NCBI GenBank assembly: GCA_023511835.1
Contig: JAIMAT010000017.1
Coordinates: 1 to 32,139 of the forward strand
Reading direction: 5' to 3'
Source of the DNA: Bacillota bacterium
Lineage (GTDB): Bacteria; Bacillota; Sulfobacillia; JAIMAT01
Length of the DNA stretch: 32,139 nucleotides
Positions within the stretch are counted from its first letter, which is position 1; each line of letters begins with the position of its first letter. Below are positions 7,057 through 24,148 of this stretch, piece by piece. Position numbers and translations under genes: made by a program. Under the pieces are notes generated by a model. It saw nothing but the letters and a program-made list of their open reading frames with translations, made no database searches and was not told the DNA's origin.

Positions 7057-7386
7057 ATGGCCGTCAAGATCCGCCTTCGCCGCATGGGGGCCAAGCACCA
7101 CCCCTTCTACCGCGTGGTCGTGGCCGACTCGCGCTCGCCGCGGGACGGCCGCTTCATCGAGTCCATCGGCTACTACGACCCCACCGCCGAGCCGGCCGTC
7201 TCCAAGATCGACGCGGAGAAGGCCGTGGCCTGGCTGCGTCGCGGCGCCCAGCCGACCGAGACGGTCCGCGCCCTCTTCCGGCGCCACGGCATCTTCGGCC
7301 TGGCCGAGGCCCGGTCGTCCGGGGAGGCACCCTCCGCGGACGGCGCGGAGGAGGAGCGGGACGGGGCCGCGGGGGCGCGGGACTGA
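7057..7386 (+). CDS. rpsP: 30S ribosomal protein S16
   Basis: S16 is a primary binding protein of the 30S subunit that helps fold the 5' domain of 16S rRNA. The 109-residue product starts [33 protein letters not shown] in family fashion, with the typical IGYYDP segment and a W-L-RGAQPT motif. The last 25 or so residues are an acidic, Ala/Glu-rich extension beyond the compact S16 core. ATG 7057 fits the invariant N-terminus, and GGAGG lies 11 nt upstream. It is the first gene of the rpsP-khpA-rimM-trmD-rplS set and is probably cotranscribed with ffh. Confidence 0.97.
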
Positions 7387-7392
7387 GGCGGC

Positions 7393-7647
7393 GTGGCCGC
7401 GCGGGAAAGCCTGCGGCAGCTGCTGGAGCTGCTGGTGGAGTCGCTGGTGGAGCACCCCGAGGAGGTCCGCATCCGCGAGGAAGCCGATCCGGACGAGAGG
7501 GTGGTCCGCTTCCGCGTCCGCCTGGCGGCCGGCGACGTGGGCCAGCTGATCGGGCGCCAGGGCCGCGTCATCCAGGCGGTGCGCACCGTCCTCCGCTCGG
7601 CCGCCGGCCGCGCCGGCCTGCGCGCCGAGGTGGACGTGGAGGAGTGA
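7393..7647 (+). CDS. khpA: KH-domain RNA-binding protein KhpA (YlqC)
   Basis: This is an 84-residue single-KH-domain protein. The GxxG loop of the KH fold is seen in LIGRQGRVIQAVRTVL (near residue 55), preceded by an acidic N-terminal helix (LLELLVESLVEHPEEV). KhpA proteins act as small RNA chaperones, often with KhpB/Jag, and in streptococci influence cell elongation. Any such role here is inferred from the family. The start is GTG 7393, 6 nt after the rpsP stop. The gene sits between rpsP and rimM, the standard Bacillota position. Confidence 0.93.
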   Translation: MAARESLRQLLELLVESLVEHPEEVRIREEADPDERVVRFRVRLAAGDVGQLIGRQGRVIQAVRTVLRSAAGRAGLRAEVDVEE

Positions 7648-7651
7648 GAGC

Positions 7652-8182
7652 GTGTCCGAGGCCGGCCGCATCACCGTCGGTCGCATCCGGGCGGCCCACG
7701 GGGTCGGCGGCGAGGTGCAGGTGGAGCCGCTGACCGACTTCCCCGAGCGCTTCCGCCGGCGCCGGCGCTACTGGCTGGAGGGACGGGAGGACGGCTGGCG
7801 GGAGGTGGAGAGGGTCCGCCGTCAGGGGGCCTACTTCCTGGTCAAGTTCCGCGGCGTGGAGGACCGTGAGGCGGCGGAGGCACTGCGCGGCGCGGAGCTG
7901 CAGGTGCCGGCGGAGGAGCTGGAGCCGCTGCCGGCAGGGGTCTACTACGACCACCAGCTGCTGGGCCTGGAGGTGCGGGACCGCGACGGCCGGCTCCTGG
8001 GCCGCGTGGAAGGCGTGGAGCATCCGCCGGCCAACGATGTCCTCCGCGTGCGCAAGAGCGGGGGCGAGGGCAGGCTCTGGATCCCGGCGCTGCGCGACGT
8101 GGTGCTGGCCATCCTGCCGGAGGAGGGACGGATCGTGGTCGACCTGCCGCCCGGCACGCCCGGTCTGGACGAGCGGCGGTGA
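7652..8182 (+). CDS. rimM: Ribosome maturation factor RimM
   Basis: RimM assists late assembly of the 30S head by binding S19 near the 16S rRNA 3' domain. The 176-residue protein has an N-terminal beta-barrel domain beginning [30 protein letters not shown]-terminal PRC-barrel domain follows ([29 protein letters not shown], and [21 protein letters not shown]). The start is GTG 7652, 4 nt after the khpA stop, and the stop overlaps the trmD start, so the genes are translationally coupled. Confidence 0.96.
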
Positions 8183-17821: not shown

Positions 17822-18880
17822 TCAGCGCGCCGCGAAGAGCGTCACCCCGCCGGCTCCCTCCATCCTTCGGACGCGCCCGGCCCGCTCCAGCCAGCGCAGG
17901 TGGGCCAGCGTCTCGCCCAGCGCGAAGAGCCGCTGCTCCAGCGGCAGGTCCGGCGCGAAGAGCCGGAAGAGGAGCTCGTAGGCGCTGGCCGGGTGCCGGC
18001 CGGCCGCCTCCCGACAGCGCTCCAGCCTCTCGTCGTGGTGGCGTTCGATCTGCTCCAGCCGCGCGCCGAGCTCCTCCAGCGAGTCGCGGTGGGCGGGAAG
18101 GACGCGGCGCGCCGGCAGCCGCTCCAGCCTTCGCAGCGAGCCGAGGTACTCCTCCAGCGGCTCGCTGGAGCCGCCGGGCCAGAGGCTGACGTTGGGCGTG
18201 ATCTTCTCCAGCACGTGGTCGCCGCTGAAGAGCAGGCGCGGCTCGGGCAGGTAGAGGCAGAGATGGCCGGCCGTGTGGCCGGGCGTCCAGAGCGCCACGG
18301 CCTCATGCGGGCCGAAGCGGAGCCTCTGGCCGTCGTGGAGCGCCGTCAGGTGTGGGAGCGGGTGGCAGGCGCTGGCGATCAGCGGGCTGGCCTCCAGGAG
18401 GGGGCCGCTCTCCGCGGGGGGGACACCGTGGGAGGCCATATACTCCCGCATCCGAGCCAGGTGGCGCTGCCGTTCCGCCGGCCAGGGCGAGGCGATGCGC
18501 AGCACCAGGGGGAGCTCGCGCGCGTGGACCAGGACGCGGCCGCCCCATCGCTCCGCCAGCCAGCCCGCCAGACCCAGGTGGTCGGGGTGGAAGTGGGTGA
18601 CCACCACTTGGCGGAGCGCTCCCGGCTGCCAGCCGAGCTCGCGCGCGGCCGACTCCCAGAGGCGGCGCGCCGGGGGCCAGTCCAGCCCCGGGTCGAGAAC
18701 GCTCCAGCGACCCGACTCGTCTTGCGCCAGGTAGCTGTTGGTCCAGCCCAACGGCCCGGGGACCGGCGGGCGGAGACGGAAGAGGCCCCCCTCCAGCGGT
18801 TCGGGCGAGCCGCCGGGCGCCGGCGGCGAGGCGGGGCCGCCTGCGGTCGCGGGTGCAGGGTTCAGAGACGAATGGTCCAT
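17822..18880 (-). CDS. Metallo-beta-lactamase-fold hydrolase (glyoxalase II-like)
   Basis: The 352-residue protein has a metallo-beta-lactamase core starting near residue 30. Metal-binding motifs are THFHPDHLG (His96, His98, Asp100, His101), TPGHTAGH (His202), SGDHVL (Asp221) and LPAHRD (His264), giving a complete dinuclear zinc site. A winged-helix-like C-terminal domain follows (YELLFRLFAPDLPLEQRLFALGETLAHLRWLERAGRV), as in LACTB2-like and related hydrolases. The substrate is unknown; thioesters, RNA and phosphoesters are all used within the family. The first 25 or so residues are Pro/Ala/Gly-rich and the start may lie further in. Its 5' end overlaps the nitrilase-like gene by 19 nt, making it the last gene of a manC-nitrilase-MBL operon. 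Confidence 0.87.
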   Translation of the reverse strand: MDHSSLNPAPATAGGPASPPAPGGSPEPLEGGLFRLRPPVPGPLGWTNSYLAQDESGRWSVLDPGLDWPPARRLWESAARELGWQPGALRQVVVTHFHPDHLGLAGWLAERWGGRVLVHARELPLVLRIASPWPAERQRHLARMREYMASHGVPPAESGPLLEASPLIASACHPLPHLTALHDGQRLRFGPHEAVALWTPGHTAGHLCLYLPEPRLLFSGDHVLEKITPNVSLWPGGSSEPLEEYLGSLRRLERLPARRVLPAHRDSLEELGARLEQIERHHDERLERCREAAGRHPASAYELLFRLFAPDLPLEQRLFALGETLAHLRWLERAGRVRRMEGAGGVTLFAAR

Positions 18881-19770
18881 GGGTAGTCGTCCACCACCGG
18901 TTCGATGTCCAGGACGGACATAGGGATGCTGAAGCGGCCGCCGTCGCGGTCGGTCAGCTCGGCCATGCGGACGAAGTTGGGCGCCGCCTCGTCCGGGTAG
19001 ACCACCGCGTCCCGCCGGAAGAGCCTCAGCCGCTGGAAGGGGCCGGGCAGCGGCGGAGTCGCGGCGGGGGCGAGGCGCACCTCCTCCACGCGGCGAGCCA
19101 CAGGCGGGCGCCCGGGAAGCTCTTCCTGGTAGGCGTTGACGAAGACGCTCTCCTGCCAGAGCGGCCCCAGGAAGAGCTCGAGCACCTCGCGCGCGGCCCG
19201 CTCCGCGCCCCGACCGAAGTTGCCGGGCACCACCACCGTCCGGGCGGCCAGCGCCTCCACCTCTTCCACCGCCACCAGCGGCAGGGCGAGATCGCTACAG
19301 ACCAGAAAGACTGCCGTCACCGGCTCGCCCGCCCCCGCGGGCTGCAAGCGGACGCGGTGGAGGCGGCGGTAGGGCCGCACGCCGATCTCCGCGAAGCGGG
19401 GGTCGTACCTCCGCTGCTCGAAGGACTGGACCGTCACCTTGGCCTGGGGCGCGTGCAGCTCGCCGTGGCGGGTGACCACCACCAGCGTGTTGTAGGCGGC
19501 GCCCGGCTCGGCGCCGGGAAGGCGGAGGCCGTTCTCCTCCGGCACCAGGTTGAGCGTGGTCACCAGGTTGAGCCCCAGGCGGGGAGCCGTCCGGGCCAGC
19601 GCCTCCAGCGCCCGGCGGGAGGCTTCGCGGGTGTAGGCCAGGTATTCCGGCAGGACGACGCAGGCGCCCGGCTCCGCCTCCACGCTCTCCAGGCGGGCCA
19701 GCACCTGCTGCAGGACCTCCTCTTCCGGCCCCATGCGGTAGGCCAGCGGGATCCAGCGCGGCCCGCTCAC
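18862..19770 (-). CDS. Carbon-nitrogen hydrolase (nitrilase superfamily)-like protein
   Basis: The 302-residue protein shows the three catalytic elements of the nitrilase fold in order. Glu42 is in CVVLPEYLAY, Lys111 in YNTLVVVTRHGELHAPQAKVTV, and Cys158 in VFLVCSDLALPLV. This Glu-Lys-Cys triad hydrolyses or transfers amide or nitrile bonds of small molecules. The remainder (VVPGNFGRGAERAAREVLELFLGPLWQESVFVNA) fits the fold, but the sequence is clearly divergent and the specific substrate is unknown. A C-terminal segment (FRRDAVVYPDEAAPNFVRMAEL) is not part of the standard core as I know it. GTG 19770 overlaps the manC stop (GTGA), so translation is coupled to manC. Function by association with mannose activation is only a suggestion. 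Confidence 0.75.
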   Translation of the reverse strand: MSGPRWIPLAYRMGPEEEVLQQVLARLESVEAEPGACVVLPEYLAYTREASRRALEALARTAPRLGLNLVTTLNLVPEENGLRLPGAEPGAAYNTLVVVTRHGELHAPQAKVTVQSFEQRRYDPRFAEIGVRPYRRLHRVRLQPAGAGEPVTAVFLVCSDLALPLVAVEEVEALAARTVVVPGNFGRGAERAAREVLELFLGPLWQESVFVNAYQEELPGRPPVARRVEEVRLAPAATPPLPGPFQRLRLFRRDAVVYPDEAAPNFVRMAELTDRDGGRFSIPMSVLDIEPVVDDYPWTIRL

Positions 19771-21066: not shown

Positions 21067-23085
21067 ATGCCGGGCTCGCCGGCTGGGGGTGTTTGCGCGC
21101 TGTCCGAGGCCTGGCCCGTCGGCTCGATGCTGGCCGTGGGTGCGCTGGGCGCCCTGCTCCTCGGCGCCGGCCAGCACGTCCTCGAGACTCTCGGCCTGGG
21201 GGCGCGGCAGGCCTGGCTCCTGCTCTCGCTGCTGGCGGTCAGCAGCTGGCTGCCGCCGGTGGCGCTGGGTCCGCTGGAGGTCAATCCCGGCGCCACCCTG
21301 GTGCCTTTGGGCGTCAGCCTCTATCTCCTGCTGGGGGCGGACCGGCGCGAGGAGAAGGTGCGGGCGAGCCTTTCCAGCCTGCTGGCCATGGCGGTGGTCT
21401 TCGCCGGCGACCAGCTCCTGCCCGCCGATCCGGGCAGCGGGCCGAATGCGCTGGCGGTGCTGGCCGACCCGGTCTGGGCGCCCGGCCTGGCCGGCGGCCT
21501 GCTGGGCGCCCTGCTGGGCGGCTCCGGCCGGGGCGCCTACGTGGCGGCCACCCTGGGCGTCCTGGGGAACGACCTGGTCTCGGTCTTCCTGGCCGCCGTC
21601 ACGGGCGTGCCCGGCGCGCTGGCGGCCCTGGGCGGGGCGGGGATCCTGGACGCCACCGTCATCGCCGGCTTCATCGCGGTGCTCTTGACGGAGCTTCTCG
21701 GCCGGCTGCGGCGCCGGCGGCTCTCCCGTCCGGGGGCCCGCAGCCGGCGAGCGGTGCGGCGGCGGCCCCCCGCGGCCGCCGCCGCGGGACGCCTCTTCAC
21801 GCGGCGGCCGTCGCTGCCTGCCGGGGAGCGGGGGGCCGCCCTGCTCGCCCTCGGCCTGGCTTCCTCCCTCCTGGCCGCAGGCTGGTGGTGGGGGCCGTAC
21901 GGCCCCGGCGCCCTGGCCGAAGGCCGGCCCTGGGGCGACGAGGTGCTGGCCGGAGCGCCCTACCTCCTGCGGGAGGACGGGGGACGGCTCTGGACCACGG
22001 GCCGCCTTCTCCGGCCCGGCGACCGCTGGTCGCCCGCCGCCCGCACCTGGTACCGGATCGTCCGCCTCGCCGGGCGGACCGCCTGGGCCACGCGGGTGGC
22101 TGCCCCGCCTGCGCCGGGTGCCGCAGCTCCGCCGGGGGCGGCGGGCGGGGTCCGCGAGGCGCTGGCGGCGCAGGTCCTGCAGGCGGGCCTCTACGCCACC
22201 CACGACGACGAACGGTATGCCGGCGTCGCGCAGGGAACGGGAGGGGCAGCCGGCGGACCGGCGGACGTCCGCCAGGCCGCCGTCTACCTCGCCGAGCGGT
22301 TGCGGGCGGCGGGAGTGCCCGCCCGCGTCGACCTGCACAGCCATCTGCCCCACGACCGGGGCGCCTACCGGCGCTCGCGGCGAAGCGCCGTGGCGCTCCT
22401 GGCGCGGGCGGGCAGCACCCTCCTGCTCGACCTCCACCGCGACCCGGCGGCCCAGGGCCGCGCGCAAGTGCCCGGCCTGGGCGACGCAGCGCCGGTGGTC
22501 CTGGTGGTGGGCCGCGCCGACCCCCATGCGGCCGCCAACCTGGCCTTCGCCCGGCAGCTGCGGGCCCTGGCCGCCCGGCGCTATCCGGGGCTGGTGCGCG
22601 GCATCCTCTTCTCCGGCGGCAACTACAACCAGGACCTCTCACCCTTCGCGCTCCTGGTGGAGCTGGGGGGCGCCGACAGCCGGCCGGGGGAGGTGGCCCG
22701 TTCGGCCGACGCGCTCGGCCGGCTCCTGGCGGAGTGGGGGCGGAGGCGCCTGCCGGCAGCCCCGGCCCGCGCGGCTCAGCCCCCCTGCGCCGCTTGCGCC
22801 GAGGCCGCCAGGCGGGCGGCCACCGCCGCCGGCACCCAGTTCATCCCGTCCGGCACGTTCAGGTGGGAGGCGTCGCCTCCCGGCACGCCCGTCTCGCCGA
22901 ACTGCCAGACGATGCCATCGGTCGCAGGGTCGATCACCACCACCCGGTGGTTGGCGTCGTCGTTCACCGCGATCAGGCCGTTGGGCAGGCGGATGGCGAG
23001 CGAGGGGAGGCGGAGACGCCCGCCGCCCGAGGTGGGGGCGTACCGCCAGAGTACCCGCCCGCCCGGCGTCACGCGCAGGACCTGA
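21067..23085 (+). CDS. DUF1614 membrane domain fused to SpoIIP amidase domain
   Basis: The frame codes for 672 residues. Residues 20-220 are very hydrophobic with several membrane helices and carry DUF1614-like segments (LEVNPGATLVPLGVSLYLLL and GGAGILDATVIAGFIAVLL). A basic linker and one more membrane helix follow (about 255-280). A stage II sporulation protein P domain then spans about 370-560. It has YATHDDERY (376-384, the family YHTH-ESY motif), DRGAYRRSRRSAVALL, LDLHRD (His457), VVGRADPHAAANLAFA, RYPGLVRGI and NYNQDLSP (519-526). SpoIIP cleaves septal peptidoglycan during engulfment. The last 110 or so residues run antisense through the propeller gene and match no domain. ATG 21067 was chosen for an AGGA 6 nt upstream. 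Confidence 0.8.
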   Translation: MPGSPAGGVCALSEAWPVGSMLAVGALGALLLGAGQHVLETLGLGARQAWLLLSLLAVSSWLPPVALGPLEVNPGATLVPLGVSLYLLLGADRREEKVRASLSSLLAMAVVFAGDQLLPADPGSGPNALAVLADPVWAPGLAGGLLGALLGGSGRGAYVAATLGVLGNDLVSVFLAAVTGVPGALAALGGAGILDATVIAGFIAVLLTELLGRLRRRRLSRPGARSRRAVRRRPPAAAAAGRLFTRRPSLPAGERGAALLALGLASSLLAAGWWWGPYGPGALAEGRPWGDEVLAGAPYLLREDGGRLWTTGRLLRPGDRWSPAARTWYRIVRLAGRTAWATRVAAPPAPGAAAPPGAAGGVREALAAQVLQAGLYATHDDERYAGVAQGTGGAAGGPADVRQAAVYLAERLRAAGVPARVDLHSHLPHDRGAYRRSRRSAVALLARAGSTLLLDLHRDPAAQGRAQVPGLGDAAPVVLVVGRADPHAAANLAFARQLRALAARRYPGLVRGILFSGGNYNQDLSPFALLVELGGADSRPGEVARSADALGRLLAEWGRRRLPAAPARAAQPPCAACAEAARRAATAAGTQFIPSGTFRWEASPPGTPVSPNCQTMPSVAGSITTTRWLASSFTAIRPLGRRMASEGRRRRPPPEVGAYRQSTRPPGVTRRT

Positions 23086-24080
23086 CCCGGGTCGGTGTAG
23101 CCGGCCACCAGGATGCTGCCGTCGGGGAGCAGCTGGGCGTCCGAGGGGTAGGTGAGACCGGGCAGCTTCAGGTCCCAGAGCACCTTCCCCTCGGGCGAGA
23201 GGCGGAGCACGTGCGAGCCGCCGATCTCGGTGACCAGCATGCCGCCGTCGGGCAGGGGTGTGTCGCCGTTGGGGCTGGCCAGGTAGATGGGCGGGCGGTG
23301 CAGGCAGGCGCCGGTCGTCCCGTACTGGCGGACGATGCGCCCGTCGGGCGCGAGGAAGAGGATGCGGCAGTTGCGGATGTCGGCCACCGTGGTGGTGCCC
23401 TGGGGGACCCCGGCCAGGCGCGCCTCCTCCACGCTCAGCCGGTAGGCGTCGTCGGGCCCGTTCAGGTAGCCGGGCGCGGAGGCTGCCACGCCGGGGTGCC
23501 CGTAGTGCCAGACGACCCGCCCGGTGAGGGGGTCGATCTCCACGATGACGTGGTTGTCCTCGGCGTTGGTCAGGATGGTGGCGTAGCCCGGTGTGAAGAA
23601 GGCGTCGTCGGGCCCGTTGGCCGGCCGGCTGCCCGCCCAGGCGGAGGGCAGCGTGTACGACCAGAGAAGGCGCTTCTGCCCGTCCACCAGGAGGAGGCGG
23701 TGGTTGTAGCGGTCGGCGATGAGGAGCGCCCCTCCGGCCAGCGGGTCGGCGGCCGCACCGACGCCGGACGGCGCGGCGGGGGTGGCCGGGGCAGCCGGCG
23801 GGGCGGAGGGGCCCGTCGCGGAGGAGGCGGAGGCGCCGCCCGCACCCCGGCCGGTGGCGCTCGCCGTGCCCTGGCCGCCGCCGGCCGTGGCTCCTGCGGT
23901 CGCAGCGGGGGTCGCACCGGCCCGAGCGCCCGCCCCGGCGGAGGACGCCGGGCTGGAGCCCCCGGGGGCGCAGGCCGTGCCGGCCAGCGCGGCGACGAGG
24001 AGGAGGGCCCCCAGCCGGCGCAGCCCGCGGAGGCGGCTGGAGGCCCGGAGAGGGATCCCGAGAGCGTGGGAGCGAGGCAT
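22776..24080 (-). CDS. Secreted six-bladed beta-propeller protein, probable lipoprotein
   Basis: The 434-residue protein begins with a basic segment and a hydrophobic helix ending LLLVAALAGTAC (Cys37). This resembles a lipoprotein signal peptide, but the -3 residue of the lipobox is Gly instead of Leu. A low-complexity Ala/Gly/Ser/Pro linker (about 38-103) precedes six repeats. Each contains an ILxxDxxNHRVLxxD-type strand pair and ends in W-Y or W-F (LLWSY, VVWHYG, IVRQYG, VLWDL, VLWRYA, IVWQFG), the pattern of a PQQ/NHL or arylsulfotransferase-like propeller. No catalytic residues are assigned. ATG 24080 has AAGGGGGGAG about 5 nt upstream. It is divergent from the aldehyde dehydrogenase gene and its 3' end overlaps the long SpoIIP frame. 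Confidence 0.82.
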   Translation of the reverse strand: MPRSHALGIPLRASSRLRGLRRLGALLLVAALAGTACAPGGSSPASSAGAGARAGATPAATAGATAGGGQGTASATGRGAGGASASSATGPSAPPAAPATPAAPSGVGAAADPLAGGALLIADRYNHRLLLVDGQKRLLWSYTLPSAWAGSRPANGPDDAFFTPGYATILTNAEDNHVIVEIDPLTGRVVWHYGHPGVAASAPGYLNGPDDAYRLSVEEARLAGVPQGTTTVADIRNCRILFLAPDGRIVRQYGTTGACLHRPPIYLASPNGDTPLPDGGMLVTEIGGSHVLRLSPEGKVLWDLKLPGLTYPSDAQLLPDGSILVAGYTDPGQVLRVTPGGRVLWRYAPTSGGGRLRLPSLAIRLPNGLIAVNDDANHRVVVIDPATDGIVWQFGETGVPGGDASHLNVPDGMNWVPAAVAARLAASAQAAQGG

Positions 24081-24148
24081 CCGGCTCCCCCCTTGCAGGT
24101 GATCCGGCACGCGCCGGCCCGGACGTGCCGGCGATCGTCGTGAAGGCT

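Follow-up and report, generated by a model that had tools for sequence, protein, structure and literature searches.

A single reading frame in the 32,139-nucleotide stretch of DNA analysed here (the window) encodes a DUF1614 membrane domain joined to a SpoIIP peptidoglycan amidase domain. Computation shows that the fusion is genuine and conserved, that the DUF1614 subfamily involved is linked exclusively to SpoIIP and has been fused to it repeatedly, that the SpoIIP part has an amidase-type fold with candidate catalytic residues, and that carriers of the fusion also carry spore genes. By analogy with amidases that depend on a membrane partner, the protein is probably a second, membrane-clamped septal amidase of the sporulation type, held and controlled by DUF1614.

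The fused reading frame and its domains

The frame runs on the plus strand from the ATG at nt 21067 to the stop at nt 23083–23085 and encodes 672 residues. Alignment to a genome of the same genus begins at residue 2, and AGGA lies 5′ of the ATG. Pfam SpoIIP (PF07454) matches residues 372–555 with 118 bits (E 7e-34, cut-off 24.4), and Pfam DUF1614 (PF07758) matches residues 70–207 with 25.4 bits (E 1.5e-5), narrowly above the cut-off of 23.9. The first-pass annotation, made from the letters alone, had described such a fusion; both families do lie above their gathering cut-offs in one uninterrupted frame, and the motifs that it quoted, VNPGATLVP, GGAGILD, YATHDDERY, LDLHRD and NYNQDLSP, are all found in the sequence. 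Its end of the frame near nt 22750 needs correction, as nt 22749 is the end of the SpoIIP domain. The folded part of the protein ends near there, and the first in-frame stop comes only at nt 23083–23085. The DUF1614 score of the window copy is weak and that of the G002 copy (21.9 bits) falls under the cut-off, yet the relationship is firm, since other fused and linked copies score 35–60 bits.

A sequence search of the PDB found no relatives. The AlphaFold2 model of the whole fusion has a mean pLDDT of 84.3 and a pTM of 0.84. The DUF1614-like polytopic membrane domain covers residues 18–219 (nt 21118–21723) according to Pfam, the models and the alignment. It is followed by an arginine-rich linker of low model confidence (residues 220–254, nt 21724–21828), by a transmembrane helix that serves as the SpoIIP part's own anchor (residues 255–275, nt 21829–21891), by a small beta domain recognised from modelled strands and a conserved pattern (residues 299–344, nt 21961–22098), and by the SpoIIP amidase domain (residues 370–561, nt 22174–22749), delimited by Pfam and Foldseek. 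All of these features are on the plus strand. Relatives of the DUF1614 domain have basic loops, 'LDRMRL' and 'GRSRR', which are reduced in the window copy. Under the positive-inside rule, which places basic loops inside, the linker is predicted to be cytoplasmic and helix 255–275 to lead outward, so that the beta domain and SpoIIP would be outside, the side where SpoIIP has to be. The same rule would place the NxGGxxxP and GGAGxxD sites of DUF1614 on the outer face of the membrane.

The remainder of the frame (nt 22750–23085, plus strand) encodes a putative C-terminal tail, antisense to a convergent PQQ/NHL-repeat gene. About 310 nt at the 3′ end of the fusion frame (nt 22771–23085 of the plus strand) are shared with this gene, which lies at nt 22776–24110 on the minus strand. 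Both strands of the overlap are open in 3/3 genus members; as third codon positions fall on the same base pairs in either strand, this conservation is uninformative on whether the tail is made as protein. Elsewhere in the window, nt 18862–19770 of the minus strand encode a 302-residue protein that is conserved in the genus and has no Pfam match; its gene overlaps by 4 nt a nucleotidyltransferase gene (mannose-1-phosphate guanylyltransferase-like).

Conservation of the fusion

Two congeneric species keep the fused frame open, at 74% and 68% identity. Every segment compared among the three species, from the membrane domain through the two linkers and the beta domain to the amidase, has a dN below dS. 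The fusion is under purifying selection in the genus. The least constrained parts are the two linkers, residues 346–369 and residues 220–254, and even in the latter dN is 0.34–0.56 against a dS of 0.79–1.6. The same architecture was sought in other genomes and found in 15 of 154 genomes of the class, namely the three of the genus and 12 more, including the finished single-contig genomes G024 and G043, as well as in two genomes of another class.

Since the two genes normally stand side by side, unfused and with a short overlap, a single insertion or deletion could fuse them, and a sequencing or assembly error that joined two adjacent genes has to be considered. The probability of such an error is negligible. 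The fused frame occurs in three assemblies of the genus, in 12 further class genomes and in several finished chromosomes, including those of the second class, and the linker aligns across the genus with dN below dS. The frameshift that the first-pass annotation had named as an objection to its own reading can be set aside on these grounds.

The DUF1614 domain

Canonical DUF1614 has, according to a survey of membrane proteins in archaea published in 2015, an all-beta loop of about 50 residues between TM2 and TM3 (PMC5898192). In our alignment the canonical sequences have a long loop here, and the window copy and the linked and fused forms a short one. The short loop makes the window DUF1614 a member of a divergent subfamily, not of the canonical type. 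Six residues are invariant in 39 sequences of three kinds, canonical, linked and fused: L44; P80, the proline of NxGGxxxP (nt 21304–21306); D169, within a membrane helix (nt 21571–21573); and G189, G192 and D195 of the GGAGxxD motif (nt 21631–21651), all on the plus strand.

AlphaFold2 models of DUF1614-like domains have pLDDT values of 84–88, and the model places seven helices at residues 18–219. A Foldseek search of the domain against the PDB gave no significant match (best E 0.78). Two candidates were tried and rejected. The two invariant aspartates prompted a comparison with GxGD-type intramembrane proteases, but there was no presenilin, SPP or prepilin peptidase among the 50 best PDB matches. 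Two similar GGA motifs pointed to an internal repeat of the membrane domain, but the profile comparison did not rise above column-shuffled controls.

DUF1614 might have an activity of its own on the septal membrane, as an enzyme such as an intramembrane protease or as a transporter of lipids or ions, with SpoIIP joined to it only so that the two are produced together in place and time. The invariance of Asp169, Asp195 and a proline in canonical, linked and fused forms fits this possibility, as does the canonical form, found without SpoIIP among archaea and, in the host genome of the window, apart from it. Against it, neither GxGD protease nor transporter likeness appeared in the Foldseek matches, the internal repeat failed, and Pfam found no significant other family in the DUF1614 sequences except a YphA-like one. 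We regard this explanation as rather unlikely, though a good deal less so than an assembly error. Control searches found canonical DUF1614 in archaea and did not find SpoIIP there, and so the family as a whole must have some function independent of SpoIIP.

The YphA-like similarity is weak. The YphA model PF24124 matches 12 of the 39 DUF1614 sequences, including the linked kind, with a best E of 6.9e-7; in one sequence shown the match scores 22.2 against a curated cut-off of 28. Such weak matches among DUF1614-like proteins were seen both at locus L160 and in the 39-sequence alignment. The search found no DUF1614 match in B. subtilis. The similarity suggests that B. subtilis YphA may be a diverged relative of DUF1614. 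In B. subtilis, yphA adjoins yphB, the YIEGIA gene, and from this position YphA could be the leftover of a DUF1614 partner in that species.

The SpoIIP part

In Foldseek, the best matches of the SpoIIP domain are the amidase_3 enzymes Rv3717, AmiP and AmiA (E 2e-4 to 1e-3), and LytH, in the structure with ActH (PDB 7tj4), is also among the matches. Three candidate catalytic residues are invariant in 13 fusions: His379 of the xTH motif (nt 22201–22203), His457 of the DxHR motif, 78 residues further on (nt 22435–22437), and the candidate acid Glu532 of VELGG (nt 22660–22662), each on the plus strand. C. difficile SpoIIP requires H142 and H222 (PMC6221140). Spacings of the His379–His457 type are 73–78 residues, against 80 in C. 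difficile, and from their order and spacing His379 and His457 probably correspond to H142 and H222. The first-pass annotation had noted that the YHTH-like motif is altered (YATH). The alteration is unremarkable, and a significance for it is not supported: other SpoIIPs can have A, V, F, C, S or N in place of the first His, and the second is kept; loss of a catalytic His was therefore rejected as a candidate, given how widely the first position varies among SpoIIPs.

In the first SpoIIP tree, standalone proteins form one clade (100/99) and DUF1614-linked plus fused proteins form another (100/99). In the cases read, such as C33 of the host genome, standalone SpoIIP is accompanied by lepA. A beta-domain pattern, GDxxIxxxNxxYxVxxVxG, is conserved in fused and paired SpoIIPs, and the domain was not seen in four standalone SpoIIP sequences inspected. 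Unfused linked SpoIIPs carry an equivalent N-terminal anchor or signal. Two additional SpoIIP copies of the linked clade, in G056 and G044, have no DUF1614 nearby.

The window genus lies on long branches (1.6–2.5) in both the DUF1614 and the SpoIIP trees. The long branch makes its precise position in the SpoIIP tree uncertain, and the fast evolution of both domains means that its copy could be shifting in function. The length of these branches, together with an NCBIfam spore_II_P (TIGR02867) score of 105 bits, under the cut-off of 123.15, would also fit a SpoIIP half that is decaying in this genus, a pseudo-enzyme retained for its membrane domain. Such decay is improbable: His379, His457, Glu532 and the YRRSR and NQD motifs are all kept, dN/dS of the SpoIIP domain is about 0.2–0.45 among genus members, and the branch of the DUF1614 half is of similar length.

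Gene linkage and independent fusions

When the phylum was sampled evenly, a SpoIIP domain lay 368–689 nt downstream, on the same strand, of 37 of the 38 divergent DUF1614 genes, and the 38th gene and its SpoIIP sit at the ends of two contigs. None of the ten canonical DUF1614 genes in the sample is linked to SpoIIP (Fisher p 2e-9 for divergent versus canonical, with the 38th gene scored as a miss). Canonical copies score 157–194 bits, and the seven of another survey are also on different contigs from SpoIIP or distant from it. The host genome has one DUF1614 of the divergent type and one of the canonical type. The host canonical gene (L053, nt 7143–7802, minus strand) adjoins a SAM hydroxide adenosyltransferase-like gene (named by eye), not cell-wall genes. 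At the level of whole genomes, SpoIIP is present in all 55 with DUF1614, while those without DUF1614 divide into 9 with and 9 without SpoIIP (p 5e-7); DUF1614 is absent from all nine SpoIIP-negative genomes of this comparison.

Most class genomes with these genes have DUF1614 and spoIIP next to each other as separate genes, overlapping by 4–86 nt in the 11 plus-strand pairs measured. The usual locus is cmk-plsC-ispH-[DUF1614-spoIIP]-YIEGIA-DUF512-der-plsY-gpsA-spoIVA, where gene names come from inspection by eye and from clustering, apart from those genes for which Pfam was run. In G152 a linked-type SpoIIP gene is followed by YIEGIA and has no DUF1614 gene upstream (L137).

A search of 399 genomes of the phylum found a 580-residue fusion in two finished chromosomes of family f140, G285 and G460, where it is located within the cmk-...-YIEGIA-der-spoIVA cluster. 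In the DUF1614 tree these two fusions fall among unfused pairs, apart from the window group, a placement which indicates that the fusion arose at least twice. The window fusion itself groups with the G022 and G041 copies (97/93), and these genomes share the window locus, lepB-ylqF-yifB-DUF3243-[fusion]-dprA-topA, with extra inserted genes in the window. Tree and synteny together identify the window fusion as an ortholog of the G022 and G041 fusions. In G039, and only there, a SpoIID gene is found directly upstream of the fusion. In G374 and G304 a second pair of DUF1614 and spoIIP genes, also unfused, stands outside the cmk-YIEGIA cluster (L164 and L165); this pair is near the fused clade in both trees and may be the unfused sister of the window fusion.

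The near-constant adjacency across the phylum and the fusion on at least two occasions make it very likely that DUF1614 and SpoIIP are parts of one machine. Repeated independent fusion with near-invariant adjacency is much stronger evidence for joint action than one fusion; it also supports the earlier suggestion, made from the window alone, that DUF1614 works at the cell wall or membrane, in this case with the cell-wall enzyme.

Sporulation context

The host genome encodes SpoIID, SpoIIM, a separate standalone SpoIIP and SpoIVA. SpoIVA is present in 15/15 fusion carriers tested and in 0/13 SpoIIP-negative genomes. The co-occurrence with SpoIVA and the presence of SpoIID, SpoIIM and standalone SpoIIP (the DMP set) in the host lead us to place the fusion in sporulation. 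As the host has its own SpoIIM, DUF1614 is an addition to the DMP set, not the replacement of a lost part.

It had been proposed that the protein acts outside classical sporulation, in vegetative cell-wall remodelling. The window copy is indeed not beside sporulation genes, and with a complete DMP set in the host the fusion is not needed as a supply of SpoIIP. The distribution argues the other way: SpoIVA accompanies the fusion in every carrier tested, the surveys gave no SpoIVA or DUF1614 match in the 13 SpoIIP-negative genomes, the gene pair in its ancestral state is clustered with YIEGIA and spoIVA, and the independent fusion sits in that same cluster. A vegetative role is accordingly improbable, about as much so as decay of the enzyme half.

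Proposed role and relation to known systems

B. subtilis and C. difficile, the species in which engulfment was worked out, use SpoIID, SpoIIM and one SpoIIP. Like the SpoIIP of the DMP complex, the window protein has an amidase fold, conserved His, His and Glu residues and a membrane anchor, and it occurs in spore formers. It differs in belonging to the DUF1614-linked clade, in its additional beta domain and N-terminal polytopic domain, and in scoring under the TIGR02867 cut-off. SpoIIM (PF01944), the membrane scaffold of DMP, is a polytopic membrane partner of a SpoIIP-type amidase (PMC9600426) as DUF1614 appears to be, but it belongs to another Pfam family. In Staphylococcus aureus the activity of LytH depends on the transmembrane protein ActH (PMC8496864). 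This pair, like the fusion, combines a wall amidase of the amidase_3 fold with a transmembrane partner, as separate chains rather than the one chain of the window protein.

The proposal that DUF1614 holds and controls the amidase is drawn by analogy with partner-dependent amidases such as LytH-ActH. A membrane partner dedicated to the SpoIIP amidase would have been incorporated into the amidase's polypeptide. This DUF1614-like domain would sit in the membrane with its NxGGxxxP and GGAGxxD sites outward, and would hold SpoIIP near the membrane by way of the anchor and beta domain that belong to the amidase. There it may limit or trigger the cutting of stem peptides by SpoIIP in septal or engulfment peptidoglycan. 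We infer this topology, the positioning or activation of the enzyme by DUF1614 and its action at engulfment. Several observations weigh against this reading: DUF1614 gave no PDB fold match, its canonical form occurs in archaea, linked-type SpoIIPs without DUF1614 exist in G152, G044 and G056, and the window genus evolves fast in both domains.

The window membrane domain is homologous to DUF1614/COG4089/arCOG02159. It was reported in the 2015 survey that COG4089/PF07758 genes adjoin spoIIP and YIEGIA (yphB) in some bacteria, and a possible complex in membrane remodelling was proposed (PMC5898192). That DUF1614 has no known function, as the first-pass annotation had it, is right; to say that it has no known link would be wrong, since the neighbourhood is in print there. 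In its passage on these genes the survey treats DUF1614 as one family and does not mention the fusion (PMC5898192), whereas the present linkage is exclusive to the divergent subfamily. No earlier report of a DUF1614-SpoIIP fusion was found in the literature searched. As far as that literature shows, the fusion and its recurrence, the division between linked and unlinked members of the family, the corresponding clade of SpoIIP and the weak YphA similarity of linked DUF1614 are new.

Much of the phylum has a second clade of SpoIIP, nearly always preceded by the same uncharacterised membrane protein. The DUF1614 family, found from archaea to spore formers, gains a concrete, testable role. A wider reading, which we put forward tentatively and hold below even chances, is that a second amidase system for engulfment or the septum, made up of DUF1614, SpoIIP and YIEGIA and separate from DMP, occurs in most spore formers of the phylum. 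DUF1614 would then represent a new type of membrane regulator for peptidoglycan amidases, and B. subtilis would keep only YphA and YphB as remnants of the system. The finding thereby raises the question of the fate of the second SpoIIP system in B. subtilis.
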